Assembly: GCF_017743735.1 (NCBI RefSeq)
Contig: NZ_JAGHRO010000006.1
Span: forward strand, 186,001-250,000
Reading direction: 5' to 3'
Origin: Shimia sp. R9_2
Lineage (GTDB): Bacteria > Pseudomonadota > Alphaproteobacteria > Rhodobacterales > Rhodobacteraceae
DNA: 64,000 nt
Both the position numbers and the translations under genes were made by a program. The notes under the pieces were generated by a model. It did no database searches, was not told where the DNA came from, and was given only the letters and a program-made list of their open reading frames with translations. How positions within the stretch are numbered: position 1 is the stretch's first letter; each line of letters opens with the position of its first letter. Of this stretch, positions 35,007 to 62,920 are shown in pieces.

Positions 35007-35083
35007 GCTCTGGTAGCTCAGCTGGATAGAGTACTTGACTACGAATCAAGGGGTCGGGGGTTCGAATCCTCCCCAGAGCGCCA
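35007..35083 (+). tRNA. tRNA-Arg (anticodon ACG)
   Basis: A 77-base cloverleaf with acceptor stem GCTCTGG/CCAGAGC, discriminator G and encoded CCA, T8-A9, D arm GCTC/GAGT, anticodon arm CTTGA-CTACGAA-TCAAG with ACG, and T arm GGGGG-TTCGAAT-CCTCC with one G-T pair. Five T follow as a terminator. The Tn7-like element starts 12 bases after the CCA end, so this gene is the likely attachment landmark. Confidence 0.95.
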
Positions 35084-35089
35084 TTTTTC

Positions 35090-35094
35090 AAATG
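35090..35094. repeat. Target-site duplication, left copy
   Basis: AAATG directly before the terminal TGT of the transposon. It is identical to 60205-60209 after the terminal ACA. A 5-bp duplication is the length made by Tn7- and Tn5053-type transposases. Confidence 0.9.
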
Positions 35095-35121
35095 TGTGAG
35101 GCGACACATAGTTCTGCCATT
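35095..35121 (+). repeat. Left terminal inverted repeat of the Tn7-like element
   Basis: TGTGAGGCGACACATAG followed by TTCTGCCATT. The inverse of the right end (60178-60204) matches at 25 of 27 positions. Further inward, GCGACA with CCATT recurs at 35123-35141 and a looser version at 35194-35211, which are plausible additional transposase-binding sites. Confidence 0.92.
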
Positions 35122-41542: not shown

Positions 41543-41920
41543 CTATCTGGCTATCGCTAAAACGATTAGTTCGGGATCTTCGTCACCAAGCTCTTCTTCT
41601 TCATCGACGTCCTCAAGCCGAACTCCGTACTTGTAATGGCCTGGTTTGTCGGCCGTAATAGTAGTAGAAACACCGACATGTTGCCCGTCAGGACTGGATA
41701 ATGTCTCGTTGGCAAACTCAAGTCGTCCAATTATGTCAGCTGTGGCATCACGAGAAAACCTGAAGGGGTTACCCGTTTCGAAGTAAACAGTCCAACGCAG
41801 GTGCTTGGCTGAAACCGAGTCAGCCTTGAAGCGCCATTGAACTAAAGTTCCCGAGTGTACTTCCACTGGATCGGGTGAAATCCGCCAGTCATTGTCTTTG
41901 AACTCAACCCATATTTCCAA
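41543..41920 (-). CDS. Small beta-rich (cupredoxin-like fold) protein coupled to patatin
   Basis: A 125-aa acidic protein without a signal peptide. The pattern DPVEVHSGTLVQWRF and, near the end, KPGHYKYGVRLED resembles cupredoxin/immunoglobulin-type beta sandwiches, but the copper ligands (His, Cys, Met set) are absent. It abuts the patatin gene (TAGATG), which suggests a partner, inhibitor or sensor for it. I do not recognise a family; the fold call is weak and the partner role is inferred from coupling. Confidence 0.6.
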   Translation of the reverse strand: MEIWVEFKDNDWRISPDPVEVHSGTLVQWRFKADSVSAKHLRWTVYFETGNPFRFSRDATADIIGRLEFANETLSSPDGQHVGVSTTITADKPGHYKYGVRLEDVDEEEELGDEDPELIVLAIAR

Positions 41921-44911: not shown

Positions 44912-44930
44912 CGTGCCCGCCAATTTGAGC

Positions 44931-45626
44931 ATGAAGAAGCAACAAACGATAATCACGGGCACTAAGTCGCCCGAACCAAGCCGTGCAACTCGCACTATAC
45001 CAAGGCGTTCAACTGCTAGTTCTCGGGGATGTTTTCCCGTTCAATTGCCTGGGTGGGAGCATCCAAGGATCGTTCAATATGAAAGCAAATTGGAAGAGAG
45101 AGTGTACTTCCTCTATCTGGCTAACCACGACGTTAGGGACATTTGGGAACAGCCGACGGCTGTTAGATACATAGATGCTGCAGGTAGATCTCAAGTACAT
45201 TTCCCGGATTGTCTGCTCAAACTGGGCAATGGACGCCGATTGTTACTGGCCATAAAACCTTGGAAGAAAGTCATAGAAAGCGGTTTTCTTTGCGAGTTAA
45301 GACAAATTCGCGCCGCCCTCCGCAAAGACTTCGCCGACGATCTAGTTCTTGTCACTGATAGAGACTTTACCCGCGACGAAGCGTTAAACGCACAACGTTA
45401 TCTCGAGTTTTCGCGCTCAAGAAACGCCGCCCATCAGAATAAACTGCTGAGTATCGTCGAGAGTCTATGCTCTCCCATAACGTTGGGGTCTCTGTCTCAA
45501 ATGTTGGATCTTGAGGGAGATGGCTTCAGAGCAATTGTCATTGCCATCTATGAAAAGGTTTTGATCGCAGACAAAACGCAACTGCTTGGCACCGAGAGTA
45601 TTGTTGCAAGGGGGGGCATGATATGA
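44931..45626 (+). CDS. tnsA: TnsA-type transposon endonuclease
   Basis: A 231-aa protein like TnsA, which cuts the 5' strands at the transposon ends so that the element is excised whole. The catalytic PD-(D/E)xK core is visible: E in YESKLEERVYFLY, D in VHFPDCLLKLG, and K in LLLAIKPWKK. The C-terminal part has the winged-helix look of TnsA (ITLGSLSQMLDLEGDGFRAIV) that contacts TnsC. An ATG at 44931 is chosen; GTG at 44913 would overlap the operator. Its stop overlaps the ATG of tniA. Confidence 0.85.
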   Translation: MKKQQTIITGTKSPEPSRATRTIPRRSTASSRGCFPVQLPGWEHPRIVQYESKLEERVYFLYLANHDVRDIWEQPTAVRYIDAAGRSQVHFPDCLLKLGNGRRLLLAIKPWKKVIESGFLCELRQIRAALRKDFADDLVLVTDRDFTRDEALNAQRYLEFSRSRNAAHQNKLLSIVESLCSPITLGSLSQMLDLEGDGFRAIVIAIYEKVLIADKTQLLGTESIVARGGMI

Positions 45627-47314
45627 ACCTCCCGTTAAGATTGAGTTCGTTCGCATTGCTGAAAGTGAATGCGCGAAAGTATGCCTTCAATCAGCGAACC
45701 GAAAACGGTTACATTTTCGAGGATGTTGAGGATAGGGAACGAGAGCTGTTCCTTACCTTTGGCGAACTACATGATCTCTTACAGAGATCGGATGTAACAT
45801 TAGACCCGTTCTACTTTAAGCCGGGACGAAGGGATTTACGCGCGAGCACAGGTATCGATGCGCTAGAGAGCTACTCTGATGAGACTAAGTCAAAAGTTGT
45901 TTGGCGCTTGGCGTGGGTAAATGGTTTCCTTCAATATGAGCGTGACAACGAAGCCAAGCGTACGGATGCGTCGATAGAGAGGGTCATCCCTGCAATTGAA
46001 GCGCACGTAAACGCCCAAGAGCGGGCTGCTCAAAGTAACTGGAAACAGCCGCGAGCGGGGAAGAAAAACAACTATCGGGCTCCGCCAAGTTCGCGGACCT
46101 TAAGGACATGGCTGAAGCGTTATGAAGATGCCGGGTGCTCGCCGCTTGGCTTGATCCCAAGAACACATCTTTCCGGAAACCGCACTGCTCGGTTTTGCCT
46201 GGAGGCATCCAAACTGATCGGAAAGAGCGTTGAAGCTTATTTGACCCGCCAAAGACTGTCTAAGAGAAATGTCGCTGATCTGTGCCGGGACCTATTCAAA
46301 AAAGTTAATAGGTCGAGAGCGGCGGAGGGTAAGCCCAAACTGACAGTCCCTTCAAAGCGTAAGGTTGAGCGCGAGCTATCGAAGCTCGATCCTTACTTCA
46401 CATGCGTGCAGCGGCATGGAGTCGACTATGCAAATCGCAATTTTGCTATCTACGAAGAAGGCGTCACTGCGGGCTATCCGATGGAGAGAATAGAGATTGA
46501 TGAGTGGTGCGTGGATCTGGTTTCGCTTCTCGCTGCGCGCGGTGCTTTGGATCAATTAACTGCGGAGGAATTAGCTAAGGTAAAACGAGGTCGCCGATGG
46601 CTGTATCTCGCAATCGACTGCGCCACACGGTGTGTTGTGGGTATGAGACTCGCCGCGAAACCAAATCGCGAGGATGCGATCGCGCTTCTTTCTGATGTGA
46701 CGCGCGATAAAACTGATATTGCGCGCGCGGCCGGGTGTGCATCAGATTGGCATCACCATGGAGGTTTGAGTTCGGTGGTGACAGATCTTGGTGTCGCTTT
46801 TGTAGATGATACCTTTCGATTTGCGGTTTGCGAAGCTTTTGGGATCGTAGAAACGCCGCGTGGCGGTCTCCCGCACCTCAGGGGGCGAGTTGAGCGTATA
46901 TTTGGTGCATTTGGGGCGCTTCTGATGCCCTACTTGTCCGGGCGAACTTTCTTCAATCCCCAACAAAGAGGCGATTATCCTTCTGAAGAAATGGCAATAT
47001 TCTCGGATGATGCTCTTATGGAAGTCTTGGTCCGATACGTCGTCGATATCTACCACAATTTGCCGCATCGTGGCTTGAACGGGGAAACGCCCAACAATTG
47101 CTGGAAACGGCTTTCCAAGGCACGAGGTGTTGTAACTCATTTGGCAGAGACGACCCGCCGTATTGCCTTTGGTGTCAAATATCGCCGGAGGGTTACCGGA
47201 AGGGGCGTTCGTCTTTTTGGGATCGACTATAGCTGCGCAGAGCTAAGACGTTTTTTTCTGCACGATCATAGAACTCACGTTGACCTGAAAGTGCACCTTA
47301 ATGATCTCGGTTGA
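45623..47314 (+). CDS. tniA: DDE transposase, TniA/TnsB family
   Basis: A 563-aa integrase-fold transposase that cuts 3' ends and joins them to target DNA. The triad is D293 (RIEIDEWCVD), D388 (SVVTDLGVAF) and E424 (LRGRVERIFG), with 35 residues between the last two. N-terminal DNA-binding helices occupy roughly residues 80-260, and a Mu-type C-terminal beta barrel follows from about 505. It is shorter than many TnsB proteins: the usual C-terminal tail seems to be in the separate small gene that follows. Overlaps tnsA by four bases. Confidence 0.9.
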   Translation: MNLPLRLSSFALLKVNARKYAFNQRTENGYIFEDVEDRERELFLTFGELHDLLQRSDVTLDPFYFKPGRRDLRASTGIDALESYSDETKSKVVWRLAWVNGFLQYERDNEAKRTDASIERVIPAIEAHVNAQERAAQSNWKQPRAGKKNNYRAPPSSRTLRTWLKRYEDAGCSPLGLIPRTHLSGNRTARFCLEASKLIGKSVEAYLTRQRLSKRNVADLCRDLFKKVNRSRAAEGKPKLTVPSKRKVERELSKLDPYFTCVQRHGVDYANRNFAIYEEGVTAGYPMERIEIDEWCVDLVSLLAARGALDQLTAEELAKVKRGRRWLYLAIDCATRCVVGMRLAAKPNREDAIALLSDVTRDKTDIARAAGCASDWHHHGGLSSVVTDLGVAFVDDTFRFAVCEAFGIVETPRGGLPHLRGRVERIFGAFGALLMPYLSGRTFFNPQQRGDYPSEEMAIFSDDALMEVLVRYVVDIYHNLPHRGLNGETPNNCWKRLSKARGVVTHLAETTRRIAFGVKYRRRVTGRGVRLFGIDYSCAELRRFFLHDHRTHVDLKVHLNDLG

Positions 47315-47317
47315 ATC

Positions 47318-47764
47318 ATGGTGCAAATCGGCAAAAACTGGGTAGTGGCGCATGCACTGCAAAAAACGTTTGAAGGCGTTTCTTACGAACAATGGGAAGC
47401 CGCAGCACGTGAATTGCGATTAAAATATCAAGCTGAGGCAGTCCTGCAAGAACAGGTCGTGTCTGACGCTTTGGCCGACATCATCCAACGAGATCGCGAT
47501 GAACGTGAGCGCTTCGGCGTTGTTCTAAAGCGACAAACCCCTGCCGGGTTGGAGCGCGCTAAAGCAGACCTCTTCCTCGGGCTGAGTATTGACGTCGACG
47601 AAGCGGAGATCTTTGACCTTACGCCTGAACCAGACCTTTTTGGGCATGTAGTTCCTTTGCAGAATGAGCCAGACAATGCGGGTTCAGAAGTTCTGGCCAA
47701 GGAGCAAAACTCTGGGGATACCTTGCTTCCAGCTCCGGGTTGGAGGTTTGAAGATGACGAATGA
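47318..47764 (+). CDS. Small protein between TniA and TniB, possible detached TniA tail
   Basis: A 148-aa acidic protein starting three bases after the tniA stop, with its end overlapping the tniB start. Residues 20-65 (ALQKTFEGVSYEQWEAAARE, then RLKYQAEAVLQEQ) form a charged helix like those in C-terminal regions of TniA/TnsB. In Tn7, the TnsB tail contacts TnsC, so I infer that this product does that job in trans. It could also be an unrelated accessory factor. There is no frameshift-prone run at the junction, so the split looks natural. Confidence 0.6.
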   Translation: MVQIGKNWVVAHALQKTFEGVSYEQWEAAARELRLKYQAEAVLQEQVVSDALADIIQRDRDERERFGVVLKRQTPAGLERAKADLFLGLSIDVDEAEIFDLTPEPDLFGHVVPLQNEPDNAGSEVLAKEQNSGDTLLPAPGWRFEDDE

Positions 47765-48746
47765 TTCAAGGCCACAACCGGAAGCGGTGGATATCCAGAT
47801 TGCTCGTTTACGAGATTTGTTTGTAGCGCATCATGCTTCAGATGAACTCAGGCTTTCCTTTGACCGTCGGCTTCGTGAGCGGCGCGCGGCTACCCAATTG
47901 GGTAGCCGCATTAAGGCACGGGGACTCGCTCTTGTTGGCGCTTCTGGGAGCGGAAAGACAACGGCAATGGATCGACTATTTGATACTCATCCTGATCTGA
48001 TTTTAGCCGAGGAGGGACGCGAGACCGCTGAAGTCCTACGGCTTCAAGTTCCATCGCCTGCCTCCCTAAAAAACGTAGGGACGGAACTTCTGCATGGATT
48101 GGGATATCCACTTTCGCGTGACAAGTCAGCTGCAATCATTTGGACACAGGTACGTCAGTTTTTGCGCGCGCGCAAAACGCTCTTTTTGCATCTCGACGAA
48201 GCGCAAGATCTCTATGTCAGTAAAGGAGTTAAGGCCCGAAACGATGTAGTCAACACCCTTAAATCTCTCATGAATGACAGAGATTGGCCCGTGGGTTTGG
48301 TGTTGTCAGGCACACATGATTTGCTTGAAATGATAAACTCTGATGCGCAGCTAAGAAGACGGCTGCACGTCATACACTTGAATCCGGTGAGTTGGGCCTC
48401 GCACGGAGCTGATGTTTCCCAAATCCTTGCAGGGCTGATTGCCAAGGCAGGTTTGCGACCCACTGAACAGGTGCAGCTCGATGAGTTCCTCAAACGGCTG
48501 ATACATGCGGGCGGAAATGAGTTCGGTCTCATCATTGAAATGAGTTTGGGTGGGATAGAGGAGGCGCTCTATTCAAAAGATCTTCAGCTTACGGTCGAGC
48601 ATTTTGCGGCCTCATTTCGGAGAAAGACGGGCTGTATTCCTGCATTCAATCCCTTCCTCGCTGAAGACTTCCAAAGAATAGATGTGCGTAAAATTATAGG
48701 TTGGGATGCCTCCCTGGACCCGAGTCTGCCGGAGGGTCATCAATGA
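47754..48746 (+). CDS. tniB: AAA+ ATPase, TniB/TnsC family
   Basis: A 330-aa ATPase that polymerises on target DNA and activates the transposase. Walker A is VGASGSGKTT with K68, Walker B is LFLHLDEAQDL near 143-153, and VLSGTHDLLEM is sensor 1. The ATG at 47754 follows GGAGG with seven bases between and overlaps the preceding gene. A longer frame from 47664 lies inside that gene and is not needed. The stop overlaps the tniQ ATG (ATGA). Confidence 0.88.
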   Translation: MTNDSRPQPEAVDIQIARLRDLFVAHHASDELRLSFDRRLRERRAATQLGSRIKARGLALVGASGSGKTTAMDRLFDTHPDLILAEEGRETAEVLRLQVPSPASLKNVGTELLHGLGYPLSRDKSAAIIWTQVRQFLRARKTLFLHLDEAQDLYVSKGVKARNDVVNTLKSLMNDRDWPVGLVLSGTHDLLEMINSDAQLRRRLHVIHLNPVSWASHGADVSQILAGLIAKAGLRPTEQVQLDEFLKRLIHAGGNEFGLIIEMSLGGIEEALYSKDLQLTVEHFAASFRRKTGCIPAFNPFLAEDFQRIDVRKIIGWDASLDPSLPEGHQ

Positions 48747-50548
48747 CTGACCAACTTGCTCTCAGCTCAAACCTTGTGTTCTTAGAAACGCCGGCTTCTT
48801 TCGTGTCTAGGGTCGCTAGGATCAACTTCAGTGTCCCAAGAGAGTGGAGCTCTGATCTTGGGCTCCGGTGGGCGAAAATATGCTCGGCATATCCGGATCA
48901 GTTGCGACGCTTGTCGAGACTTACTGGAGTGTCACTAGAGCAACTCCAATTTAATGCACCAGCGCAAATAGGCCCCTGTAGATATCGTGTGGGACATTCC
49001 AGTGCGACCAACGGTACGATGCTTCGTGCGATCACTCGGATCTGCCCGCAGTGCGTTCTAGAGGCTCTTGAGCAGGCTGGGTCACATGGGGGCTTTCAAC
49101 GGCTTGATTGGTTGGTGTTGCCAATTGGAACCTGTGCCAAACATGGGGTGCCGCTACTAAAGTTACCCAATGCTCTGAACACTCATCTTACATATGATGT
49201 TGTTCAACAATTGTCTGTTCATAGGGATATAATAACGCAAGCGGCTCAGTCCGCTTGTGTTTTAGGGCGTTCATCATTCGAAAATTACCTTAGCCACCGA
49301 ATTGAGTTCGGCAAACACGCTGATTGGCTTGACACTCTCGACCTTACGCACCTGCATCAGGCATCCCTTACGCTTGGCATGCAATTAGGCTTTGGATCTC
49401 AGTTGAAGCGTTCCGATCTGAGTTGGGAGCAGGAGCGCACAGCGATGTCTTTAGGCTTTAGCGTGCTTGAGAAGGGAGGCGATGCGCTAGCCAGCGCCTT
49501 GGAGCAAACGCGGCAACGGCGGCCCTCTGAAGAGAGGTCATATTTTACTTCAGATCTGCGCGAATTTTATGCGTGGCTGAAAAGCACCGAAGATGACCTT
49601 GCAACAGCTTCGCTGAGAGGATGTGTGCGTGACTTCATCAAGCAAAACTACCCATTGCAGGGCGGAGCGAAGATACTTGGTGCCGAGATAAGGGCACCAG
49701 AGTTCGTAACGCTGGAGCGCGTGCGAGAGGAACATGGTGTGGGCAAAGTTAGGGTTCGAGGCATACTTGCGCATCTTCGTGGCGCTGCCGTAGAGGAATT
49801 GTCTGATCTTCAAGATATTCGATACGAAGATCTCGACAAAGTTCTCCAATTTTGGGCGAACCTTCAGAACATTAAGCAGACAGCAGCACAGTTGCACATC
49901 CACCCAGTTCAGGTGAAAGCTCTTATTCGAAGCAAGACGCTGGAGGCTCATCGCTTTGGAACCTCCCTGCAATACGTGACAAAGTCTTCGGTTAGCGCAC
50001 TTATGACACGTCTTGAAAATTTGCCCGCCGCCGCCGCCAGCAAAGAGAATTTACCCTTAAAAGATTTCTGCAGACGGAGCCAGATTCCGTCCGCCCGGGT
50101 GATCTCAGATTGGGTTGGCGGAAAGCGGGAGGGATTATCGCGAGATCCTGACGCCTCGGGTTTGGCCGCTATTTTGGTCTGCGATGGCAAAGTGTTTCCG
50201 CGTCGTTCACGCCGATTTGCGGGGGACCTGGCTTTGCTGGATGCCGCGGCCCACTTACGAATGAACGTAGCATCGGTAAGGCACCTTAGGGATGGGGGAT
50301 ACCTCACGCAATACAAAGTTCGGAATCCCGAAACACAACATTACCGATGCTACATAACCGAAAGCAGTATTCGAGACTTTGAAGAGAGATTTATTACACT
50401 TGGTCAATTGGCAGAGCAATTGGACGTGGCAGCAATCCACCTAGCACGCGCGCTGGACAAAAAAGAGATTGAGACAATACCTTGCGACGCTGGGTTTGTT
50501 CGCGCTTACCCAAAATCAGAAACCGAAGTGTTCCAGAAGCTCACCTAA
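48743..50548 (+). CDS. tniQ: TniQ/TnsD-family target-selection protein
   Basis: A 601-aa protein. The N-terminal TniQ domain has the zinc motif C101-P-Q-C104 and C131-A-K-H134. The ~450 residues beyond it hold repeated helix-turn-helix-like segments, for example LHIHPVQVKALIRSKTLEAHR near 400 and LRMNVASVRHLRDGGYLTQ near 510. This length is nearer to TnsD, which binds a specific attachment site, than to short TniQ. Given the insertion beside tRNA-Arg, I infer that it recognises that gene. It ends the transposition operon. Confidence 0.85.
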   Translation: MTDQLALSSNLVFLETPASFVSRVARINFSVPREWSSDLGLRWAKICSAYPDQLRRLSRLTGVSLEQLQFNAPAQIGPCRYRVGHSSATNGTMLRAITRICPQCVLEALEQAGSHGGFQRLDWLVLPIGTCAKHGVPLLKLPNALNTHLTYDVVQQLSVHRDIITQAAQSACVLGRSSFENYLSHRIEFGKHADWLDTLDLTHLHQASLTLGMQLGFGSQLKRSDLSWEQERTAMSLGFSVLEKGGDALASALEQTRQRRPSEERSYFTSDLREFYAWLKSTEDDLATASLRGCVRDFIKQNYPLQGGAKILGAEIRAPEFVTLERVREEHGVGKVRVRGILAHLRGAAVEELSDLQDIRYEDLDKVLQFWANLQNIKQTAAQLHIHPVQVKALIRSKTLEAHRFGTSLQYVTKSSVSALMTRLENLPAAAASKENLPLKDFCRRSQIPSARVISDWVGGKREGLSRDPDASGLAAILVCDGKVFPRRSRRFAGDLALLDAAAHLRMNVASVRHLRDGGYLTQYKVRNPETQHYRCYITESSIRDFEERFITLGQLAEQLDVAAIHLARALDKKEIETIPCDAGFVRAYPKSETEVFQKLT

Positions 50549-51093: not shown

Positions 51094-51300
51094 ATGAGTG
51101 ATAAAGAAGGGGAAGCTAAACTGGAACTCGCTCGAGCAGCTCATCAAAGCGGGTCATCAGACCCATCAGACAGTAGCTATGAGGAGCTATTGGCCAAAAT
51201 GCAGGAGCTTCAAAAAAAGGTTCAGTTGATGGGGCCGATAGATCCAGGCTTTGACATGAAAAGCTTTTCTGATGAGTTAGAAGGCAGGTTGTCGGACTAG
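51094..51300 (+). CDS. Small acidic coiled-coil protein
   Basis: A 68-aa hydrophilic protein; residues 28-45 (YEELLAKMQELQKKVQL) are a likely short coiled coil. GGGAG lies nine bases before the ATG. It converges on the Phd-like gene and their ends overlap by four bases. No family recognised; it could be a small regulator or the partner of a lost gene. Confidence 0.5.
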   Translation: MSDKEGEAKLELARAAHQSGSSDPSDSSYEELLAKMQELQKKVQLMGPIDPGFDMKSFSDELEGRLSD

Positions 51301-51596
51301 GTTTTGAGCCCAGTCCCTTTGTTGCTCTCCTCGCTTTGCTCCAGTGATCTACGCAAGGCGGCTAACAAGATTTTTCTCTCTCGAATGGGCGTCTCTTCGA
51401 TCCCCCAGGCTCTTCTTGGATCTGGCCATAGCTTTTCAAAAAGGTCTTCGGACATGACGACGTAGGAGACACGCCCGTTCCGACGGAGGAAAGTTGGCCC
51501 CTCATTCGCTTGTTTCGTAAGGTCGGCGATGTCGCCGTGTAGTGTCTCGATGTCGAAGCGTTTGCCTTGGATCTGGGGGAGGTCTGTTCTTTTCAT
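51297..51596 (-). CDS. Phd/YefM-type antitoxin, orphan
   Basis: A 99-aa protein whose centre matches the Phd/YefM fold: IADLTKQANEGPTFLRRNG, then RVSYVVMSEDLFEKLW. Such proteins neutralise toxins like Doc or RelE and repress their own promoters. No toxin gene lies next to it; the convergent neighbour is a small acidic coiled-coil protein. AGGGA precedes the ATG on the minus strand. It may guard against toxins elsewhere or be a remnant. Confidence 0.65.
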   Translation of the reverse strand: MKRTDLPQIQGKRFDIETLHGDIADLTKQANEGPTFLRRNGRVSYVVMSEDLFEKLWPDPRRAWGIEETPIRERKILLAALRRSLEQSEESNKGTGLKT

Positions 51597-52107: not shown

Positions 52108-54017
52108 ATGCACGTGTCGATAAACTTGTTTGTTCGAATTTGTATTATTTGGTTACTTGGACTTTCGACGATCGGCGCGGCGGATGCTGGGTCATTTTCG
52201 GAAAGAAAAAAAAAGCAATCGAAGCTGCAGAAAATTTCCTGTCGGAGAGCAGTTCATTAGCAACTGCACCGGACACTAAACTTTCAAATCATATGACCGC
52301 GCGCCATAAGTTGCGGATGGCGCTCTTTGAAGGTGTCTTGTCGGATGATGCGGGACGAAACAGAAAAACTTTTCGTTTCTTGCTAGAATCCAGCACGTCG
52401 AGAGGCGAGGTATGGGTTGCCAATGCCATTCTTGCCAACGACACTTATTTTTCCGAGGTTCTGCCCACCGAGTTGGCTTTGCTTGAAGTCGTGAGAGGCA
52501 ACTTGGCCAGCGCAGTTGAACTTGCGCCATCGGATGGCAAAACCCTTAGGATACTTACTCCGGTTGTTGCAATACACATTGGCATGGATGAAGCTCTTGC
52601 TTTGGAAAGCAGAATTAACTGGGGTCGTGCAAGCTCAAGAGACGGCAGACCTATTGTAACGCGTGACGATCTGCTAGCGCGGATGCGATTACTTGGTGTC
52701 GTCGCGCGTACTGAACAGAATCCAGATGCTAGAAGACTTGCACTTGAATTAATTTCGGATCTTGCAAGTGGGGTTGAGCCAGCCCGAGGAACATTTTCTA
52801 GAGGGAGTAGTGATGGTTATGTTCGTACGATTTCGGAGATTATCGCGTTTTTGTATAGAGTTGGTCTCTCAGATGCATCGAATGCGCTGACACAAAGAAC
52901 GTTGCCCGGCCCAGATGCATCGGAACTGCTGCCTCTCCGCTGGAATATCGCGGTCCTAAGATCGCGAAATTTGTCGCTCTCGGATGGATTGTCAGTTATT
53001 GGTGACGACATCAGAGGTTTGCAAATACTCCATCGGAGTCTACTAAATTCTGACACCATGAGGGATGCCGAGATTGTCCGCCGGAAAGCTGTTCAGACAA
53101 TCCTTACCGGTATCAAAGCAGACGTGAAATGGTGGGGGCAACATGCCCAGGTTGCATATTTCTTAGCAGTTTCTCTCAATTGCTCTGAACTCGCAAGCTT
53201 TCTCCGGAAATATGGAAGATACGTTGATGACCGCGAAAATTTTTATCGTCTCGCGATCGCGTCGGCCGCGCGCAAAGGGGCTGAAGATGCCGTTCTGTGT
53301 GGATTGGCTCTGGATGGTAAAAAAATCGGCGACAGCGCTAATAGAAGGCAAATAGATTTCTTGAACCTCCGAAAAGATTGGATTCTTGCGGCAGCCGTTG
53401 AGTTTGCCAAAGTCGGTGATTCTGCTCGCACGTCCGCCTTTGTTGATGGAGTACGCAGACAGGGGCCCAGTGACTTAGAGGCACTAGAAATTGGCCTATT
53501 AAATGCTACCCTGATGATTGTTGGCAATGACTTGGACACAGCCATTTCGCTATTGGAGGCGACTGACATCCGTGGCGATAAACGTTTGTCCAATTGGAAA
53601 ACCGGATTACTTTTGGAGGCTTATGGTCGCCTTCGAAAGAAAGGCAACTCTCGGTTGGAAGCTCGGATAGAAACCGAATTAGATGATATCGAAATTAGCG
53701 AGCGTCTGGTTCGAAATCTCGTGCCGCCAAAATGGTGTTGGTTGGATCGTGAGAGCTACCAAGGTTCAATGGTCACTGCCGCATCGGTGATCCGTTTTGA
53801 TCGCGCAGTGCGTGCATCGAAAGATGGGCGTGACGACGAATACTATTCTATCGTTAATTCAACCGAAGATGCGTTTTCCAATATGGAGAAACTATGCATT
53901 CAACTTGGTTTGGGAAATACCAGTGCTGCTATAGAAATTTTTTTGGACTCTGCCGCGACCGAGCAAAACGAAACCGCATGGAACAAAATGTCCGCAGTTC
54001 TAGCGTCAAGGATCTAA
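52108..54017 (+). CDS. Exported helical protein, made by -1 frameshift or broken at an A-run
   Basis: The ATG at 52108 opens a signal peptide (NLFVRICIIWLLGLSTIGAADA) but that frame stops after 51 codons. The long frame, open from before 52140 to 54017, has no signal peptide. They meet at 52209-52215, A AAA AAG in the first frame, the classic dnaX-type slippery heptamer within nine A. A -1 shift gives a 636-aa exported protein, helical and repeat-like (RLALELISDLASG, TAISLLEATDI), of unknown function. A lost or gained A in the run would look the same. First gene of a four-gene exported set. Confidence 0.7.
52209..52215 (+). promoter_or_regulatory. Slippery heptamer A AAA AAG
   Basis: In the frame of the 52108 signal peptide, codons AAA (52210-52212) and AAG (52213-52215) follow an A, inside a nine-A run. 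A -1 slip here joins the signal peptide to the 600-residue body. I see no strong downstream stem. Confidence 0.6.
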
Positions 54018-54065
54018 TATTGGCCGGTTGTTAGAAGGTGGGGTTAAATTAGAAGGTGAAAATTC

Positions 54066-55268
54066 ATGAGATTTCAGCGCGTTGCGGTTGTACTGTCGGT
54101 GTTCTTAATTTCAGGTTGCTCTGGTAACTTAAACATCTCAGTCCAGGAACGCTGGAACAAAAGCATTCGGAACTTCGGCCTAACTTCCATCTATCCAATG
54201 CGGGAAGATGTGTATATTGGGACAGTTCGGCTAATTTTGAACGAAGAAAATCCGTTTGGTATAAATTCAAGAAACTACGGATACATCGATATGGTCCGCG
54301 CACTGAATGCGGTTTATAGCAATTTGCCCACCCATGCGGAGCTCAACGATGGTGTCCGCAACACGATTGCGAACAACGCGAACAAGCAGTCGGTCGCGGT
54401 TTGGGATCAGCCGAACGGTCCCGCAGGTGGGAGCGTGGGGGGCGCAGGTTCAAACCGACCTCGTCTTGCATCGTTGCCTGGCGTGTCGCTTGTTCGAGTA
54501 TCAGCGGCGGATTTCCAGCGCCCCGGTCTCTTATCGGCCCTAACAGGCGCGTTCCGCCGAGAAGCCAACTTGGACATATCATTGGGCGCAATCGAAAGTG
54601 TAGAAATCGACGATGTTACTGCACTTCGGGTGTTTGGGAACGCCCTTGCTGACAGGTTTGTAAGGGATCCGGTTTTTCGCAACGCAATATGCGTGTCGTT
54701 TCGAAGTATGGGAGGCGGTCAATTCGACAAGCTATCTTTAGAGATGGTCACGCGAGTTTTCTATGCGCGTTCGATAAACTATTCCTACGGCAACGATGTG
54801 TCTGCCGGGCTGGATAGAGCGAAAACCGCACCATCTGACCCTGCAAGTGTGGTGGCGACTCCGACCCCCGATGGGCAAAACGCCACTGCGGCGGCGGCGG
54901 ATGCGTCCGAGCAAGTAGGCACGGCGGGTCCTGTGACAGCAAGCATATCTGGGGCGTCCAACGATGCTTTGGAGCGTGATGAGGTGTTCGAGCGACCTTT
55001 GGCGTTTGGAGTGACAACCCTCGGCTTCAAGGTCGCTGACCTTGGCTTGACTTGTGACCAGGGTATTGCGTCAGTTCGTGCCGAGAGCCCGATCGCGAAA
55101 TGGCAGTCCGACGCGTGTGGCTCTACTCCTGTCGAAGCGTGCCGGCTTTCAGGTTTGTCGACTTGGCCCACTTCTGGAACGATGCTAGTTACGCCACCTC
55201 CAAACATCGGCGGAGCGGCCAACGATGAAGATTTAGTGTCGGGTCTTGGAGGCTTTGATGATGAGTAG
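54066..55268 (+). CDS. Lipoprotein, unknown
   Basis: A 400-aa outer-membrane-type lipoprotein: signal MRFQRVAVVLSVFLISGC with the lipobox LISGC (Cys18) and Ser at +2. Residues 30-240 are mixed alpha/beta; 275-310 are rich in Ala, Thr and Pro (PDGQNATAAAADASEQVG), and the C-terminal part has four cysteines that may form disulfides. No family recognised. It lies 48 bases after the exported helical protein and overlaps the protease gene, so it belongs to one operon. Confidence 0.75.
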   Translation: MRFQRVAVVLSVFLISGCSGNLNISVQERWNKSIRNFGLTSIYPMREDVYIGTVRLILNEENPFGINSRNYGYIDMVRALNAVYSNLPTHAELNDGVRNTIANNANKQSVAVWDQPNGPAGGSVGGAGSNRPRLASLPGVSLVRVSAADFQRPGLLSALTGAFRREANLDISLGAIESVEIDDVTALRVFGNALADRFVRDPVFRNAICVSFRSMGGGQFDKLSLEMVTRVFYARSINYSYGNDVSAGLDRAKTAPSDPASVVATPTPDGQNATAAAADASEQVGTAGPVTASISGASNDALERDEVFERPLAFGVTTLGFKVADLGLTCDQGIASVRAESPIAKWQSDACGSTPVEACRLSGLSTWPTSGTMLVTPPPNIGGAANDEDLVSGLGGFDDE

Positions 55269-57114
55269 TCTCCGAGGTCACTCAGCCAGACTGTTTTTGC
55301 TCATTATTTTGATTCCAGGATTGGCGCAAGCACAGTCACTTGACTTTGGTGGATCTAGTTTCAGCCCAGGAGGCTCGGTGAACTTAGGTGGGACCGGAGC
55401 CTCCTCAGTCAGTTCTGGAAGCGCTGGCCCCAGCTTCGGAACCAATGGGTCTGGTTTCAATCCTGGAGGGTCGGTGAACTTGGGTGGGACTGGATTCCCT
55501 TTGCTTGGTCCTAGAAGTACTTACCAAGGTCTCGGATTCAATGAGTTAGGCTTCGGCTCTCCAATGGGAAGTACCAATTTCAATCCTAGCTTGCACGATG
55601 GTGATAAACCCCTTGGTCAAGAAGGGATTGGCTCCATTTTTGATGAAAACAATCTCACTGGCCAATTTGGTCAAAGTGCTTTTGGTCTCGAGATTTACCG
55701 AGGCGGCGCGGCAGTATCCGGAAATGATGGTGCAGCGATGAGTAGCCCTCAAATCTTCGTCACTGATACTGGAGCGTTGATAACCACCCGCCAATTTGAA
55801 GAAATGAGCGATTTGATAAACGATCAATCATTTGACACGGGCTTCAGGTCGTACCAAGGGCTTCTGTCGGTCGCCGGTGTAGAAGGCCTAACGGAGCTAC
55901 CCGCAAATATTCAGGAAGAGTTTATTCTGAGAAACATGGAAATACTCCCAAGCGACATCCCTGCCTTTCAATTTGACGAAAGTGACTTCTTGAAAAGTGT
56001 ACGCCCTGGTGTCCCAGGAGATGGGGGAGGAGCTGGCATATGTTCAGGCTCTGGCTGTGGTACCGCAACACCGACAACTTACGGAAGCATTGGCGAAGGC
56101 ACCGGGTTGGAGTGCCCACCAGCACTTTGCCCGCGCAATACAAACTCAGATAATGATGGGAATGAAAACGAGAATAGCCATAACTCAAGCCAGCCTATCT
56201 TGGTTGGCTGTTTGGGCAAGTTATGCGGCTTTCCAGATCGACAGCCATTGCCGACCCGAAGCGATGGCAGATCTGAAGTCAGCTACGTTTCAGACGAGCA
56301 CGCGGATGCAGTTCTGGTGATGCTGCAAAGAGGCGAAGATCAAGCTTTCTGCTCTGGTGTGCTAGTTGCACCAACTGTCGCGCTTACAGCGCTTCATTGT
56401 ATGAGTGGCAGTAAGAACGCCTTGTTCGGGCGCTTCAAAAGCCGACCGGACGCTGTCACAGGGTGGATGCGATTAACTCTAAAGAACGACGAAGACTTCG
56501 CAGTTTTTCTATATTCGGATGTTCTGAAAAAGTCTTTTACGATGGCGAGTTTCTCAATTCCGTATGCTACTAAGAATGACTTGAATGAATACAGAAACAA
56601 AACTGGCTTTCTTCCCAAAAGGGATATTGCCGTCATCCATTTGAATGGTGGTGGGCTTGATGAGCCAGATGGTTTTTTCCCATTTTTGAACTTTAAATAT
56701 ACAAGCCAATCTGATTTGTCGGAATCGATTTCATTTGCCGGGTTTGGAATTACAAATGTTGATTTTCCGGAAGGTACGCCGATCCAAGGTCGAAAGCTAG
56801 TTACATTCAATTTCCATGACGGGGTCGCAGCCCGGACAGATCGAAGCCATAGCTTGTTGACTTGGCGCAATGGCGATCCGATCGGAACTGGCGGACCCTG
56901 CAAGGCTGACAGTGGCGGACCGGTCTACGCCGGGTTTAATCGCGGGTACTGGGACGACCCTCGACAGTTAATTGGTATAGTTTCGGCCATGGAGGGGAAG
57001 ATTGCAGATTTCACGGGGTGCCTAGACCCGGATGCCATCGGGCTGGCAGAGGAATTAGCCCCTTACCGTGATGGTATCTGCAATTTGGGGTCAACAATAC
57101 CGAGGGGGTGTTAG
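55258..57114 (+). CDS. Secreted trypsin-like serine protease with Gly-rich N-terminus
   Basis: A 618-aa exported protein. The signal peptide (residues 1-26, ending GLAQAQ) is followed by a glycine/serine-rich region in which PGGSVNLGGTG occurs twice, about 32 residues apart. A middle region of ~200 residues and a cysteine-bearing linker lead to an S1-family protease domain (about 340-618) with H380 in TALHC, D456 in KRDIAVIHL and S552 in ADSGGPV. All three catalytic residues are present. It overlaps the lipoprotein gene by 11 bases (ATG at 55258 or 55261, after TTGGAGG). Confidence 0.85.
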   Translation: MMSSLRGHSARLFLLIILIPGLAQAQSLDFGGSSFSPGGSVNLGGTGASSVSSGSAGPSFGTNGSGFNPGGSVNLGGTGFPLLGPRSTYQGLGFNELGFGSPMGSTNFNPSLHDGDKPLGQEGIGSIFDENNLTGQFGQSAFGLEIYRGGAAVSGNDGAAMSSPQIFVTDTGALITTRQFEEMSDLINDQSFDTGFRSYQGLLSVAGVEGLTELPANIQEEFILRNMEILPSDIPAFQFDESDFLKSVRPGVPGDGGGAGICSGSGCGTATPTTYGSIGEGTGLECPPALCPRNTNSDNDGNENENSHNSSQPILVGCLGKLCGFPDRQPLPTRSDGRSEVSYVSDEHADAVLVMLQRGEDQAFCSGVLVAPTVALTALHCMSGSKNALFGRFKSRPDAVTGWMRLTLKNDEDFAVFLYSDVLKKSFTMASFSIPYATKNDLNEYRNKTGFLPKRDIAVIHLNGGGLDEPDGFFPFLNFKYTSQSDLSESISFAGFGITNVDFPEGTPIQGRKLVTFNFHDGVAARTDRSHSLLTWRNGDPIGTGGPCKADSGGPVYAGFNRGYWDDPRQLIGIVSAMEGKIADFTGCLDPDAIGLAEELAPYRDGICNLGSTIPRGC

Positions 57115-57152
57115 TGCATTCGAAGCGGGAGAGTCTTATCGGGAGGTGTACT

Positions 57153-59894
57153 GTGACCAAGAGGTTTTGCAAGTGTGCTCAAGATGAAGTTGCTTTCTCG
57201 TCGATGAATCGATGTCTTCGCATGGTGTCGATGTTTCTGGGTATTTGTGTCATTGGGTTTGAGGCGCATGCTCAAACTATGTCTTGCGCAGACGCGGGGA
57301 TCAAAGACATCGACGAAGCTCTAATTGAAGCAGCGGCGAGCGGCGTTCATCGCGAGGTACTAGCAAACCTTGAAGCTGGTGCGGACCCCAATATCCGCGA
57401 TGATACTTGCCACACAGCAACACTTTGGGCTGCCAGAGCGGGCCACAGCGCAGTTCTCCTAGATTTGGTGGAATACGGCGGCGATCTTACGGTTTCGCTA
57501 CCCGCCCCTGATGGTAGAAACGGTGGAGATTTCGTGGACCGCCACACAATTCCCGACATTGAAGGAAAGTTGGAGGAAGCGCGTAGGGCTTTCAGTGGCC
57601 GAAACTTCGTACTATTTTCTGAGCGGGGCGAACACCGGCGTGCAATTGCAATGATACAAGCTAATGAGGTGGAACTTGGTCGCTCATTGGGATTTGTTGA
57701 TCAAACCCCTTTGTCTTTTCTGCTAAAGACACGGTCCAACACCGACATATCCGACAGGGACGCTATCTTTGAAATTCCGAACCCAGAAAATGCAAAAGGT
57801 TGGGGTGATGCGGTGTCTATGGCTGTACAATCTTCAGATTGGCAACTGTTGGAATTTGCATTGCCGTTTGTCGATAGTTGGGTCATTGCCCGCCAATTCA
57901 AAGAACTTCTAATGGAGAACAACGTCAGTGTTGCGCGGCGCATGATTGCTCCTGGGCTCGTCGGTTTTGACGAACGTATCCGTTCGCTTCCTGGGGCATT
58001 GGTCAGCTTTCAACCCAACGGATCAATTTCAGAAGATGTTCGCAAACTTGTGCGTGAGGTTTTCGATGCTAAGAGCTATGGGCAATGGGAAGAATGGGCT
58101 AGAATAGCAGTGATCTTTGGGGACGAAGATATACTGCGAAAGGCTGCACCAAATGTTTGCACGTCGAGCTATTCCTGCGAAGATCTAAAGTCGGCCCTCG
58201 CGTTAAGTTGGACGGCTGATACAAAAGGAGAATTCACACAGATAATCCTCAGCCAGGAGCATTTTTTTATTGGCCCGGAAGATGTGAGCGGAATGTTCAA
58301 GAGTTTGGGGCACGATCGAGCAATTGAAGTGGTACAGCAACTAGGATCCAAAGTCAGTGGTCAGGATTTGGAACCAGTACTGGAAGAGCAATTCACGCTG
58401 CTTGCGAATGGTAGCGTGGGGGCCTTATCTGTCATCGAGCTTCTGATCCGGGAATTCGATGCTCCTGTTGCGCCAAAAAATATCGACAGAATCACCCAGT
58501 CGAGCTCGATTGCCGACCCTGAGCTTCTTGCTTTGTCGATTGTTTTTGAGACGGGGGCTTGGAAGAATTGGGACTGCGATTATTCGTCCCGACGATCGCT
58601 TACGATGGCCAAAGGCTGCGGAGATAGATACTATTCGGCCAGTCTTCATTGCGAATCGGATTGGTACGAAAAAGTACTTGACCAGACTCTTGGGTACCTT
58701 GCTCGGACTGAAGATCTCTCCTCAACGGTCTCAGTTATCGGTGGTCTTGCTCAACTTTGCGAGTACGAAGGTGAAGACGATGTAGACTTAATAGTAAGTC
58801 TTTTTTCGGCGATCCTTTCCTACGATGAAGCTCGTGTTCTCGCAGGCCTCGTTGACACCGAGCAACGTTTCAACGGAGATACGTTTGATCGCGTTTGCGC
58901 CCCGTTGTTGGATCTACTCACCCGAGTTCCTGGGCAGGAAGTCTCAGGCGAAGATATCATGTTGTTTATTCAGAGTTTCACGCCATCTGGATATTCGGCG
59001 CAGCCCAATTTTTCATCGGTTAAAAACTGTGGTCGGCTGATCGGCCGCGGGGTTCCCGGTACGTCGGACATACGTGTGAAATTTTTCGAAGCCATGGGCT
59101 TAACTGGAATTCCGATGGAGGACATCGCTATTGATGAGCTTCGTCGTCTGAATCGCTTTGGCGGAGATGTTGGAACTGCGTTGGCCGCTTTACGGTTTTC
59201 GGATCCCGGATTAGTGGCGCGATCAACGATATTCAGTGAACACTTGGAGTTTGTGGCTGCTAATCCAAAAAATCGAAGGACAGATTTGCTTGTGGAATTG
59301 TTTGATGCGGATTCGAATGGGCGGGCTGCTCGTTGGGCTTTAAACACTAGATTTGTGGCTGACGGACAAAGCATAGATTTGCCAGAACCGCTTAGAAAGG
59401 AAATTGACCTTCGTGTGGACAATGTTGGCCAGTATCTGGCTTGTGATGCAAGAGTTGCCTTTTCAACAGAACTCCTTGCGTCCAGACGAAACTGTCCCGA
59501 GGGAGGCGAATGCAGTCACTTTCCTAAAGTCGCGCCGATTCTGAACAACATCGTGGCAGTAAATGATAACCCAATTCAATCAACGTGCGCCAAGGAAATG
59601 CTAGACAGGACCCTCAACGCCAAGCCTTCGGAAAGTTATGCGCTTGCCGTTTCTGGGCTTCTTACAGCTGGAGTTACGACAGACGCTCAGACGATCGAAG
59701 ACATCGCAGACAACTGGGACTTAAGGAAGGCCGCAGAGGGTGCGGAGGTCATGGGCCTAATCCTTGAACGCCATGGCGATGGCGGTTTGGATGACGTGAT
59801 CCTCAGAAATTCGTCGAGATTGTGCGATGCCAGTCCTGAGATGCGCTCGGTCATCGAAACATATCTTGAAAACAGAGCGGTCGCTTGCAACTAA
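57153..59894 (+). CDS. Exported protein with ankyrin repeats, unknown
   Basis: A 913-aa protein from GTG at 57153, placed after GGGAGG. A signal peptide follows a long charged start (hydrophobic core LRMVSMFLGICVIGFEAHAQ); ATG at 57204 is an alternative that removes 17 residues. Ankyrin-like repeats are near the mature N-terminus (ALIEAAASGVHREVLANLEA, then GADPNIRDDTCHTATLWAAR). The remaining ~700 residues look like alpha-helical solenoid, with cysteines near the end. Likely periplasmic. It is the last gene of the exported set, 38 bases after the protease gene. Confidence 0.75.
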   Translation: MTKRFCKCAQDEVAFSSMNRCLRMVSMFLGICVIGFEAHAQTMSCADAGIKDIDEALIEAAASGVHREVLANLEAGADPNIRDDTCHTATLWAARAGHSAVLLDLVEYGGDLTVSLPAPDGRNGGDFVDRHTIPDIEGKLEEARRAFSGRNFVLFSERGEHRRAIAMIQANEVELGRSLGFVDQTPLSFLLKTRSNTDISDRDAIFEIPNPENAKGWGDAVSMAVQSSDWQLLEFALPFVDSWVIARQFKELLMENNVSVARRMIAPGLVGFDERIRSLPGALVSFQPNGSISEDVRKLVREVFDAKSYGQWEEWARIAVIFGDEDILRKAAPNVCTSSYSCEDLKSALALSWTADTKGEFTQIILSQEHFFIGPEDVSGMFKSLGHDRAIEVVQQLGSKVSGQDLEPVLEEQFTLLANGSVGALSVIELLIREFDAPVAPKNIDRITQSSSIADPELLALSIVFETGAWKNWDCDYSSRRSLTMAKGCGDRYYSASLHCESDWYEKVLDQTLGYLARTEDLSSTVSVIGGLAQLCEYEGEDDVDLIVSLFSAILSYDEARVLAGLVDTEQRFNGDTFDRVCAPLLDLLTRVPGQEVSGEDIMLFIQSFTPSGYSAQPNFSSVKNCGRLIGRGVPGTSDIRVKFFEAMGLTGIPMEDIAIDELRRLNRFGGDVGTALAALRFSDPGLVARSTIFSEHLEFVAANPKNRRTDLLVELFDADSNGRAARWALNTRFVADGQSIDLPEPLRKEIDLRVDNVGQYLACDARVAFSTELLASRRNCPEGGECSHFPKVAPILNNIVAVNDNPIQSTCAKEMLDRTLNAKPSESYALAVSGLLTAGVTTDAQTIEDIADNWDLRKAAEGAEVMGLILERHGDGGLDDVILRNSSRLCDASPEMRSVIETYLENRAVACN

Positions 59895-60177: not shown

Positions 60178-60204
60178 AATGGCAAAGCTATGTGTCGCCT
60201 CACA
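60178..60204 (-). repeat. Right terminal inverted repeat of the Tn7-like element
   Basis: Read inward it is TGTGAGGCGACACATAG then CTTTGCCATT, with 25 of 27 bases equal to the left end. It ends in ACA on the plus strand, directly before AAATG (60205-60209), the right copy of the target duplication. Confidence 0.92.
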
Positions 60205-60209
60205 AAATG
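60205..60209. repeat. Target-site duplication, right copy
   Basis: AAATG, identical to 35090-35094. Removing 35095-60209 would join the tRNA-Arg flank TTTTTCAAATG directly to TTGCACGTCACATG. Confidence 0.9.
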
Positions 60210-61951: not shown

Positions 61952-62920
61952 CTACCAAAAACAGTCGAGCATCACGGGATCATTGTCTGGATCATTGTCG
62001 TTGCAAGGTGAAAGCACACCAGCTCCTCCAAGTATTCCTGCAACAATCAAAGCGCCCATCGCAAAACGCCCCTCACGAGAATGCCACGCAGAAATCCGAT
62101 CCTCTCTTTCCCGAAGAGCTTTCGCGAAATCTGATCGAATTTCATTTTGAACATTAATCGCATCCTGTGCAAATTCTCTCAAAGACTGTAGATTTTGATA
62201 TTCAAAAACATACTCTCCATTCGAGAGTCTGGCGTAAATTTTTGTTACGGCAGGCGCTGTATGGAGCATCTCTCCCTCTAGCCCCAGATGTAACACAAAC
62301 TCTACAGAAGTTGGCCAGGAACCGCATTGACTGGCAAGCAGACGAAATAGTGCTAAGCTTTCCACCTCAAACTTTCCAAACTTTTGCTCAGGGGGGATAG
62401 CGATCCACTTTTGGTTTGATTCGCGAGCTAAGGCCACTTGTTTGTCAATTTCTGAGATCATTGCTCTGTCCATGGGGGTCTCAGTCAATGGCGATCTTGA
62501 GTAACTTAGAACTTGAGTAGCCACAGACATCAATCCGATTTTGACGTGTTTCCCGCAAGCTTCACCTATTAGCCAAGGCGCCTCCTCACCATAAGCAAGC
62601 GCATAAACGTTCGGAACAACATCTGCCTGACCGTGTGTGCAGTCGAAAGTGAGGGCCGGAGGCTCATAGAAAGATGCAAGGTTTTTCCCGAGTCTTGGCG
62701 TAATTATGCGGGACCAAGGGTAACCACTTGTCAAAAATTTGTTGTACTCAATTGAAGGTAGAAATTTGCGATAACCACGCATGTGAATACTATACCCAGA
62801 ATCTGCGTAGGTCCGGTCGACTTCTGGTCGACAAATATTAGAGGACTGAGCCAAGGCAGAAAACGATGACCCAAAAACGCAAAGTAGGGAGATTATAAAA
62901 ATGGGCCCAAACTTTCTCAT
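61952..62920 (-). CDS. Exported protein with C-terminal membrane segment, unknown
   Basis: A 322-aa protein. The signal peptide (FIISLLCVFGSSFSALAQ) is clear. The mature part has six or more cysteines, and near the C-terminus a hydrophobic glycine-rich segment (FAMGALIVAGILGGAGVL) is followed by an acidic tail (NDNDPDNDPVMLDCFW). No family recognised. GAGAGG before the ATG overlaps the end of the small upstream gene, so the two are coupled. It lies outside the Tn7-like element, beyond the IS3 element. Confidence 0.7.
   Translation of the reverse strand: MRKFGPIFIISLLCVFGSSFSALAQSSNICRPEVDRTYADSGYSIHMRGYRKFLPSIEYNKFLTSGYPWSRIITPRLGKNLASFYEPPALTFDCTHGQADVVPNVYALAYGEEAPWLIGEACGKHVKIGLMSVATQVLSYSRSPLTETPMDRAMISEIDKQVALARESNQKWIAIPPEQKFGKFEVESLALFRLLASQCGSWPTSVEFVLHLGLEGEMLHTAPAVTKIYARLSNGEYVFEYQNLQSLREFAQDAINVQNEIRSDFAKALREREDRISAWHSREGRFAMGALIVAGILGGAGVLSPCNDNDPDNDPVMLDCFW

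Follow-up and report, generated by a model that had tools for sequence, protein, structure and literature searches.

The window, by which we mean the whole 64,000-nucleotide stretch from Shimia sp. R9_2 that was analysed, holds between positions 52,108 and 59,894 four long co-directional open reading frames (ORFs) on the forward strand: gene 1 at 52140–54017 (625 amino acids, a length counted from the TTG start set by the ORF program), gene 2 at 54066–55268 (400 amino acids), gene 3 at 55246–57114 (622 amino acids) and gene 4 at 57108–59894 (928 amino acids). They lie in the right arm of a Tn7-like transposon and may together protect the cell surface.

Four closely packed genes in a Tn7-like transposon

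A spacer of 48 bp separates gene 1 from gene 2; genes 2 and 3 overlap by 23 nucleotides as ORFs, or by 11 with the likely ATG of gene 3 at 55258; and genes 3 and 4 overlap by 7 nucleotides as ORFs, or stand 89 or 107 nucleotides apart with the signal-peptide ATG of gene 4 at 57204 or 57222. By eye, a signal peptide or a lipobox opens all four genes (that of gene 1 lies in another frame), and the signal peptides of genes 3 and 4 end in AQA and AHA. The four probably form a single transcription unit. A first-pass annotation of this DNA had described four consecutive exported genes; the four co-directional ORFs are present, although gene 1 is not one open frame from 52108. It had also known of no described system with such a set, and the profile scans agreed: apart from a trypsin domain, a stretch of ankyrin repeats and scattered weak hits (E-value, E, 0.01 or worse, with PADLOC hits listed separately), genes 1–4 had no match in Pfam, PADLOC, NCBIfam or PHROGs, and the Pfam, NCBIfam and PHROGs scans returned no family of a known secretion or surface system for any of the four. 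Compared with the known anti-phage systems in PADLOC 2.0, they gave only two weak hits, LmuA for gene 3 (E 0.047) and PDC-M72A over the ankyrin stretch of gene 4 (E 4e-4). Literature searches found no paper on a periplasmic anti-phage set of trypsin-like protease, lipoprotein and ankyrin protein, and nothing pertinent from 2020 on about phage defence by a periplasmic serine protease with a signal peptide.

The placement of the genes in a transposon was confirmed, and the element could be delimited by its ends and a target-site duplication. An inverted-repeat search found one pair with 27-nucleotide arms, TGTGAGGCGACACATAGTTCTGCCATT at 35095–35121 (forward strand) on the left and its partner at 60178–60204 (reverse strand), 283 bp past the end of gene 4, on the right; the arms are identical at 25 of 27 positions and at all of the outermost 17, and we wrote the consensus of the ends as TGTGA(A/G)(A/G)CGACACATAG. 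The 5-bp duplication AAATG flanks both ends, at 35090–35094 and 60205–60209. Because the 27-nucleotide ends are paired and flanked by this duplication, we take the transposon to be complete, at 25,110 bp (35095–60204). Its left end lies 11 bp beyond a tRNA-Arg(ACG) gene (35007–35083, forward strand; ARAGORN), its attachment site, and DNA similarity to congeners stops at 35083–35093 in seven of the eight congeners tested and at 35119 in the other.

The core genes stand in line in the middle of the element, all on the forward strand: a TnsA-like endonuclease gene (44913–45626; NCBIfam TnsA_like at 2.9e-7, with homologues 5′ of tnsB in relatives), a TnsB-like transposase gene (45623–47314; weak Pfam Mu-transpos_C and rve matches, and relatives 55–59% identical in four other genera), a 148-residue ORF whose right end overlaps the tniB ORF (47318–47764; homologues in related elements), a TniB/TnsC AAA+ ATPase gene (47664–48746; Pfam TniB at 3.4e-24) and a gene for a TniQ/TnsD-type target selector (48701–50548; Pfam TniQ at 1.3e-12). 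The TnsA and TnsB profile scores are under the curated cut-offs; gene position and homologues are concordant. With tnsA, tnsB, tniB and tniQ in this order, TGT...ACA inverted ends, a 5-bp duplication, a fixed insertion site immediately beyond a tRNA gene and defence cargo, the element shares the features given for Tn7-like transposons (TnsABC, TniQ/TnsD) in the available parts of PMC8649781 and PMC10293859; it differs from the elements described there in its central core with cargo on both sides and in its attachment at tRNA-Arg(ACG), and "tRNA-Arg" is absent as a term from the main text of PMC10293859. We regard as well supported both that the element is an intact Tn7-like transposon homing to the 3′ side of tRNA-Arg(ACG) and that the four genes are its right-arm cargo, with the anatomy of an exported operon.

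The claim that the same transposon carries defence genes also held. PADLOC returned one full-length match within it, a PD-Lambda-4_A-like gene in the left arm (35866–39711, forward strand; 1309 bits), and a weak match (Effector, 1.8e-9) for a neighbouring patatin-like phospholipase gene (39953–41542, reverse strand; Pfam Patatin at 1.7e-28). Third-position G+C content was 0.44–0.55 in the eight transposon genes measured; outside, two genes that lie upstream of the tRNA had values of 0.73 and 0.76, and a gene past the right end had 0.42. An Rfam scan gave no match.

The gene 2 lipoprotein and its relatives on other mobile elements

Gene 2 (54066–55268) encodes a predicted outer-membrane lipoprotein with the lipobox LISGC-S (by eye), and sequence comparison places it in a family, mostly lipoproteins, that is spread over other mobile elements. 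The full-length protein retrieved nothing from plasmids at 1e-3 and nothing from viral contigs, though both collections hold relatives. A 74-residue piece gave a single plasmid match (E 0.01), on R. leguminosarum pRL10, and that protein aligns with residues 6–321 of the 400 of gene 2 at 22% identity (E 5e-8). From the pRL10 copy we reached further relatives on a phage contig and on plasmids of R. beringeri, C. gilardii, B. cepacia and Klebsiella/E. coli. A profile hidden Markov model of four plasmid copies, with the window left out, scored gene 2 at 59 bits and two pieces of the phage copy at 49 and 42 bits, whereas the highest score among 200 shuffles was 5 bits and the next ORF of the window reached 2 bits; hhalign of gene 2 to the family gave 98.4%.

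The family, which we denote (Y/F)PxxE...FxxP, has an N-terminal W...(Y/F)PxxE(D/R)...G motif, seen at seven loci (the window, L110, L111, L113, L114, L115 and L116). Gene 2 itself has the N-terminal W...(Y/F)PxxE...G, the C-terminal FxxP and the lipobox or membrane anchor by which members were recognised. A lipobox was seen by eye in all copies except that of pRL10, which is anchored by a membrane segment, and the four complete plasmid copies are 371–477 amino acids long. Alignments A5, A6 and A8 omit two copies: the truncated one of B. cepacia and that of the phage, which is broken between two frames and whose two pieces were handled separately. Family membership is least secure for the Klebsiella copy, which a phage piece reached at E 0.5 to 2 and the Cupriavidus copy at 4e-3. 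Of 33 plasmid records that matched the phage-piece search, five were examined besides pRL10, including one of 26 from Klebsiella, and a Paracoccus match was dropped after it proved to match glycosyltransferases. Neither of the two members scanned, gene 2 and one relative, matched a Pfam family, and gene 2 also had no PHROGs match. A structure model of gene 2 made with the two phage rows had a predicted local distance difference test score (pLDDT) of 28.

The sampling of the family is biased, its homologues having come from plasmid and viral collections. Genome samples yielded only the window's own copy and one weak match: gene 2 was found in 1 of 292 genomes of the order, the window's own, and its profiles in 1 of 249 genomes and, in another sample, in 2 of 140, the second at E 0.0065. 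The 74-residue piece also matched 17 further genomes among 289 of the class (E 0.0055 to 0.45), which we treated as noise.

The first-pass annotation took the four genes as a unit, and here the comparison goes part of the way against it: in the stretches read of plasmids and the phage contig, relatives of gene 2 occur without the other three, and 16–20 kb around the gene 2 loci outside the window contained no convincing relative of genes 1, 3 or 4. The lipoprotein genes of pRL10, pRlX4, p298-1, the C. gilardii plasmid and the phage contig share N- and C-terminal motifs with gene 2 and are solitary or lie beside other enzyme genes; only the copy in the window adjoins an S1 protease gene. On pRL10 (L110:5549-10945) four genes stand in line, for an S8 protease, a protein with a weak, sub-threshold alpha/beta-hydrolase match, a glucosaminidase-amidase_3 protein and, last, the membrane-anchored homologue of gene 2; the amidase-type neighbour is a peptidoglycan hydrolase.

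Three settings of the homologues deserve a record of their own. On the IMG/VR phage contig (L111:9986-11501) the gene lies antisense to phage structural genes and adjoins a capsid-like gene (by eye), and on the Cupriavidus and Burkholderia plasmids (L116:5955-9224 and L114:5938-8342) it is next to an integrase gene, in truncated form in B. cepacia pYS1.

A predicted exported protease, a gene with a frame break and a putative ankyrin protein

Gene 3 (55258–57114) encodes an exported S1 serine protease, with a Gly/Ser-rich N-terminal region, in which PGGSVNLGGTG occurs twice, and a C-terminal catalytic domain. It scored 29.6 bits with Pfam Trypsin (cut-off 20.6), and its His-Asp-Ser columns (H55, D131 and S227 in fragment numbering) are common to two distant rhizobial proteases, so the assignment to the trypsin-like family was borne out; S552, named at first pass, is indeed the active-site serine when residues are counted from ATG 55258. 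The protein is not a trypsin proper. In ...GTGGPCKADSGGP a Gly stands six residues ahead of the active Ser, at what we take to be position 189, which is Asp in the S1 pocket of trypsin; because Gly replaces this Asp, trypsin-style cleavage after Lys or Arg is unlikely. Two residues ahead of the Ser is an Ala, presumably at position 193, where Gly is usual and Ala unusual.

The catalytic domains of the S1 proteases of S. meliloti psymA and Mesorhizobium pMspAR07b are 24–27% identical to that of gene 3, with the same His, Asp and Ser columns and a shared C-terminal C...GC; the N-terminal regions differ. The pMspAR07b gene overlaps a weakly phage-lysozyme-like gene rather than a lipoprotein gene. 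Among 398 genomes of the phylum only the window's own had gene 3. A protease scan of genome contigs gave, among the matches listed, 18 loci that match gene 3 only (the other genes had none below E 0.3), and four viral loci likewise match gene 3 only. The overlapping pair on pMspAR07b (L005:9422-11604) is possibly another pair of exported enzymes.

Gene 1 (52108–54017) is read from translation, a homopolymer scan and a low-confidence model as a signal peptide in one frame and a helical body in another. The frame of ATG 52108 reads MHVSINLFVRICIIWLLGLSTIGAADA... and closes at 52258–52260 after 50 codons, whereas the body runs for about 600 codons without a stop in the −1 frame. The two meet at a run of nine A residues (A9, 52206–52214), the sole run of at least 8 A or T in the 25-kb transposon. 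Read in frame with the signal peptide, the run contains A-AAA-AAG, a shape familiar from programmed −1 shifts; at such a run the polymerase may also slip, or the base count be in error. With the signal peptide out of frame with the body, an exported form of gene 1 needs slippage, unless the base count is wrong. The sequence around A9 folds into a hairpin no better than shuffles do (z −0.59). A single-sequence structure model of the protein was all-helical at low confidence (pLDDT 46), and the protein is probably helical and of a repeat type. Searches covering plasmids (at 0.01), viral contigs and the fetched loci gave no match to it.

Gene 4 (57204–59894) encodes another exported protein, in which a short ankyrin stretch near the N-terminus is followed by a long unclassified part. 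Residues 57–128 of the 928-residue ORF match PDB ankyrins (phmmer, E 2.2e-12); the Pfam ankyrin hits are sub-cut-off (Ank_4 at 16.5 bits against 22.7). Among 25 genomes of the genus, and again among 295 of the family, only the window's own had the gene, and no plasmid matched at 1e-3; four plasmid records, of which three carry an ankyrin annotation, matched at E 0.5 to 9.

The absences recorded for genes 1–4 are weak, because the full-length gene 2 query missed relatives that a short piece and an alignment later reached, and genes 1 and 4 may have undetected relatives.

Related transposons and the possible role of the module

A TnsB search at 1e-15 matched 66 of 295 genomes of the family, the window's own counted. 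From these relatives we sampled 20 stretches of 15 other genomes, some not covering a whole element, together with eight congener stretches; genes 1–4 had no match at 1e-4 in any of the 28, a search made with 18 proteins of the region. Three of the four nearest elements (G231, G127 and G257) have the same kind of ends, 9–10 bp past tRNA-Arg(ACG), with 5-bp duplications of their own (TCCTT, ACCCT and CCAAA, respectively); the ends of the fourth, G270, could not be set. The slot downstream of tniQ, where the four genes lie in the window, holds in G257 matches to NsnA (400.8 bits) and NsnB (381.7 bits) over nearly their full length, along with a Fic protein. In the left arm G231 has a methyltransferase gene adjoining one for a restriction-type ATPase, G127 an LmuB-like gene, and G257 genes for two proteins without a PADLOC match. 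With up to 3 mismatches in 17 allowed, no end-like sequence turned up in the eight congener stretches.

These relatives also offered observations apart from their cargo. In one congener (L105, G475) the same tRNA is followed after about 10 bp by a diverged end-like sequence, TGTGAAGAGACACGCCGTTCTGCC. About 7 kb outside the inner element, G257 (L086/L087) has a second right-end repeat and more end-like repeats, as though the same site had taken in a second related element or a composite. In G127 (L085) the tniQ-like gene consists of three ORFs in one frame, as if broken by in-frame stops.

We tentatively favour, ahead of the alternatives below, a conflict module of the envelope that the transposon carries and that would be directed against phage, conjugative DNA or rival cells. 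We infer this function from position: from the transposon itself, from what fills the equivalent slot of one relative, and from the spread of the lipoprotein family over mobile elements. The defence reading is favoured by PD-Lambda-4_A in the transposon, NsnA/NsnB in the G257 slot and the defence-type left-arm genes of relatives, and by the relatives of gene 2 on plasmids and a phage contig, with the pRL10 copy placed after an S8 protease gene. Defence genes are an enriched class of Tn7-like cargo, insertion occurs downstream of tRNAs, and further systems yet to be described are likely among the remaining cargo, according to the part of PMC8649781 available. In such a module the gene 2 lipoprotein would be the envelope anchor, the helical gene 1 and ankyrin gene 4 proteins would bind partners or incoming material, and the gene 3 protease, secreted or periplasmic, would cleave a target at the envelope; the whole would act as a barrier to, or exclude, incoming phage, conjugative DNA or rival cells, and would complement the cytoplasmic defence gene of the same transposon.

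The anti-phage systems catalogued so far are mostly cytoplasmic in their action. A cytoplasmic defence gene and an all-exported operon in one transposon would, if the reading is true, mark envelope-level defence as cargo, and the fixed slot at tRNA-Arg(ACG) offers a simple route to gather more such modules. The gene 2 family, on plasmids of several genera and a phage contig, is a concrete new target.

Several results weigh against an envelope conflict module. By eye, the ORFs in the right slots of G231 and G127 resemble for the most part recombinase and ParB genes, with one in G127 that looks Fic-like, and the G231 recombinase had no PADLOC hit; PADLOC was run on 10 of the 46 ORFs listed for G231, G127 and G257, of which six match at 1e-5 and four do not. 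No relative of gene 1 or gene 4 was found in plasmids or fetched loci, nor of gene 1 in viral contigs or gene 4 in the other genomes of the genus and family samples. Ten linkage loci, eight for gene 2 (two from one contig) and two for gene 3, contained no convincing relative of the other genes, matches at E 0.45 to 4.5 being taken as noise. The pRL10 cluster may not be extracytoplasmic, because by eye the neighbouring enzymes are without a signal peptide. Gene 1, from its frame break, may be dead or mis-assembled; Ala193, on sequence, could weaken the gene 3 enzyme; and promoter scans, like terminator scans, gave site numbers not above those of shuffles.

Plasmids and prophages bear envelope lipoproteins that act in surface exclusion and superinfection exclusion. 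By their envelope location and mobile setting these would be analogues of gene 2, which has no sequence match in Pfam or PHROGs, and it is possible, if rather unlikely, that gene 2 alone gives exclusion and genes 1, 3 and 4 are separate exported cargo sharing the slot. Relatives without those three genes, mostly with no evident operon partner in annotation tables, fit that account; the tight packing of all four genes on one strand, the R. leguminosarum copy, likewise in line with a serine protease gene, and the want of a Pfam family for gene 2 speak against it. An accessory module that serves extracellular life, for instance by breaking down environmental protein or by attachment, and that plays no part in conflict is likewise unlikely: a secreted protease and a surface lipoprotein would suit it, and the available part of PMC8649781 names several classes of non-defence cargo, but the four genes include no transporter or regulator, defence-type genes share the transposon and occupy the equivalent slot of one relative, and the presence of gene 4 in only one of the 25 genus genomes suits conflict cargo better than core nutrition.

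We give still less credence to a bolder form of the defence reading, a new and wholly extracytoplasmic type of system borne by Tn7-like transposons, in which the lipoprotein would dock the protease and two repeat-protein sensors and slippage at A9 would gate the export of gene 1, so that the exported form would arise only in some transcripts or cells. It is improbable that the set is a degenerate remnant with a frameshifted gene 1 and no remaining function: the frame of ATG 52108 does close early and no gene 1 relatives were found against which to check it, but no stop interrupts genes 2, 3 and 4 or the body of gene 1, the protease keeps its triad, and the break falls exactly in the one long A/T run of the transposon, the likeliest place for slippage or a miscounted base. 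Least probable is an antibacterial module with a toxic protease and another protein protecting the producer, an idea that goes back to the competition role suggested at first pass and to the exported protease adjoining an envelope lipoprotein gene, since scans of the four genes gave no toxin delivery domain, secretion system or immunity-like family.

Further genes in and around the transposon drew our attention. Beyond the right end, near insertion-sequence (IS) elements, 61952–62920 (reverse strand) encodes an exported protein without a Pfam, NCBIfam or PADLOC match; another exported protein outside the transposon and near IS elements (L022:1301-2611) had no match in the transposon relatives and congeners with which it was compared. 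Inside the element, a 99-residue gene at 51297–51596 (reverse strand) has by eye the look of a Phd/YefM-type antitoxin, with no evident toxin gene alongside. The patatin gene, whose product has a long unclassified N-terminal part, adjoins a 125-residue gene (39953–41920 together, reverse strand), and the two make a candidate conflict pair within the transposon.

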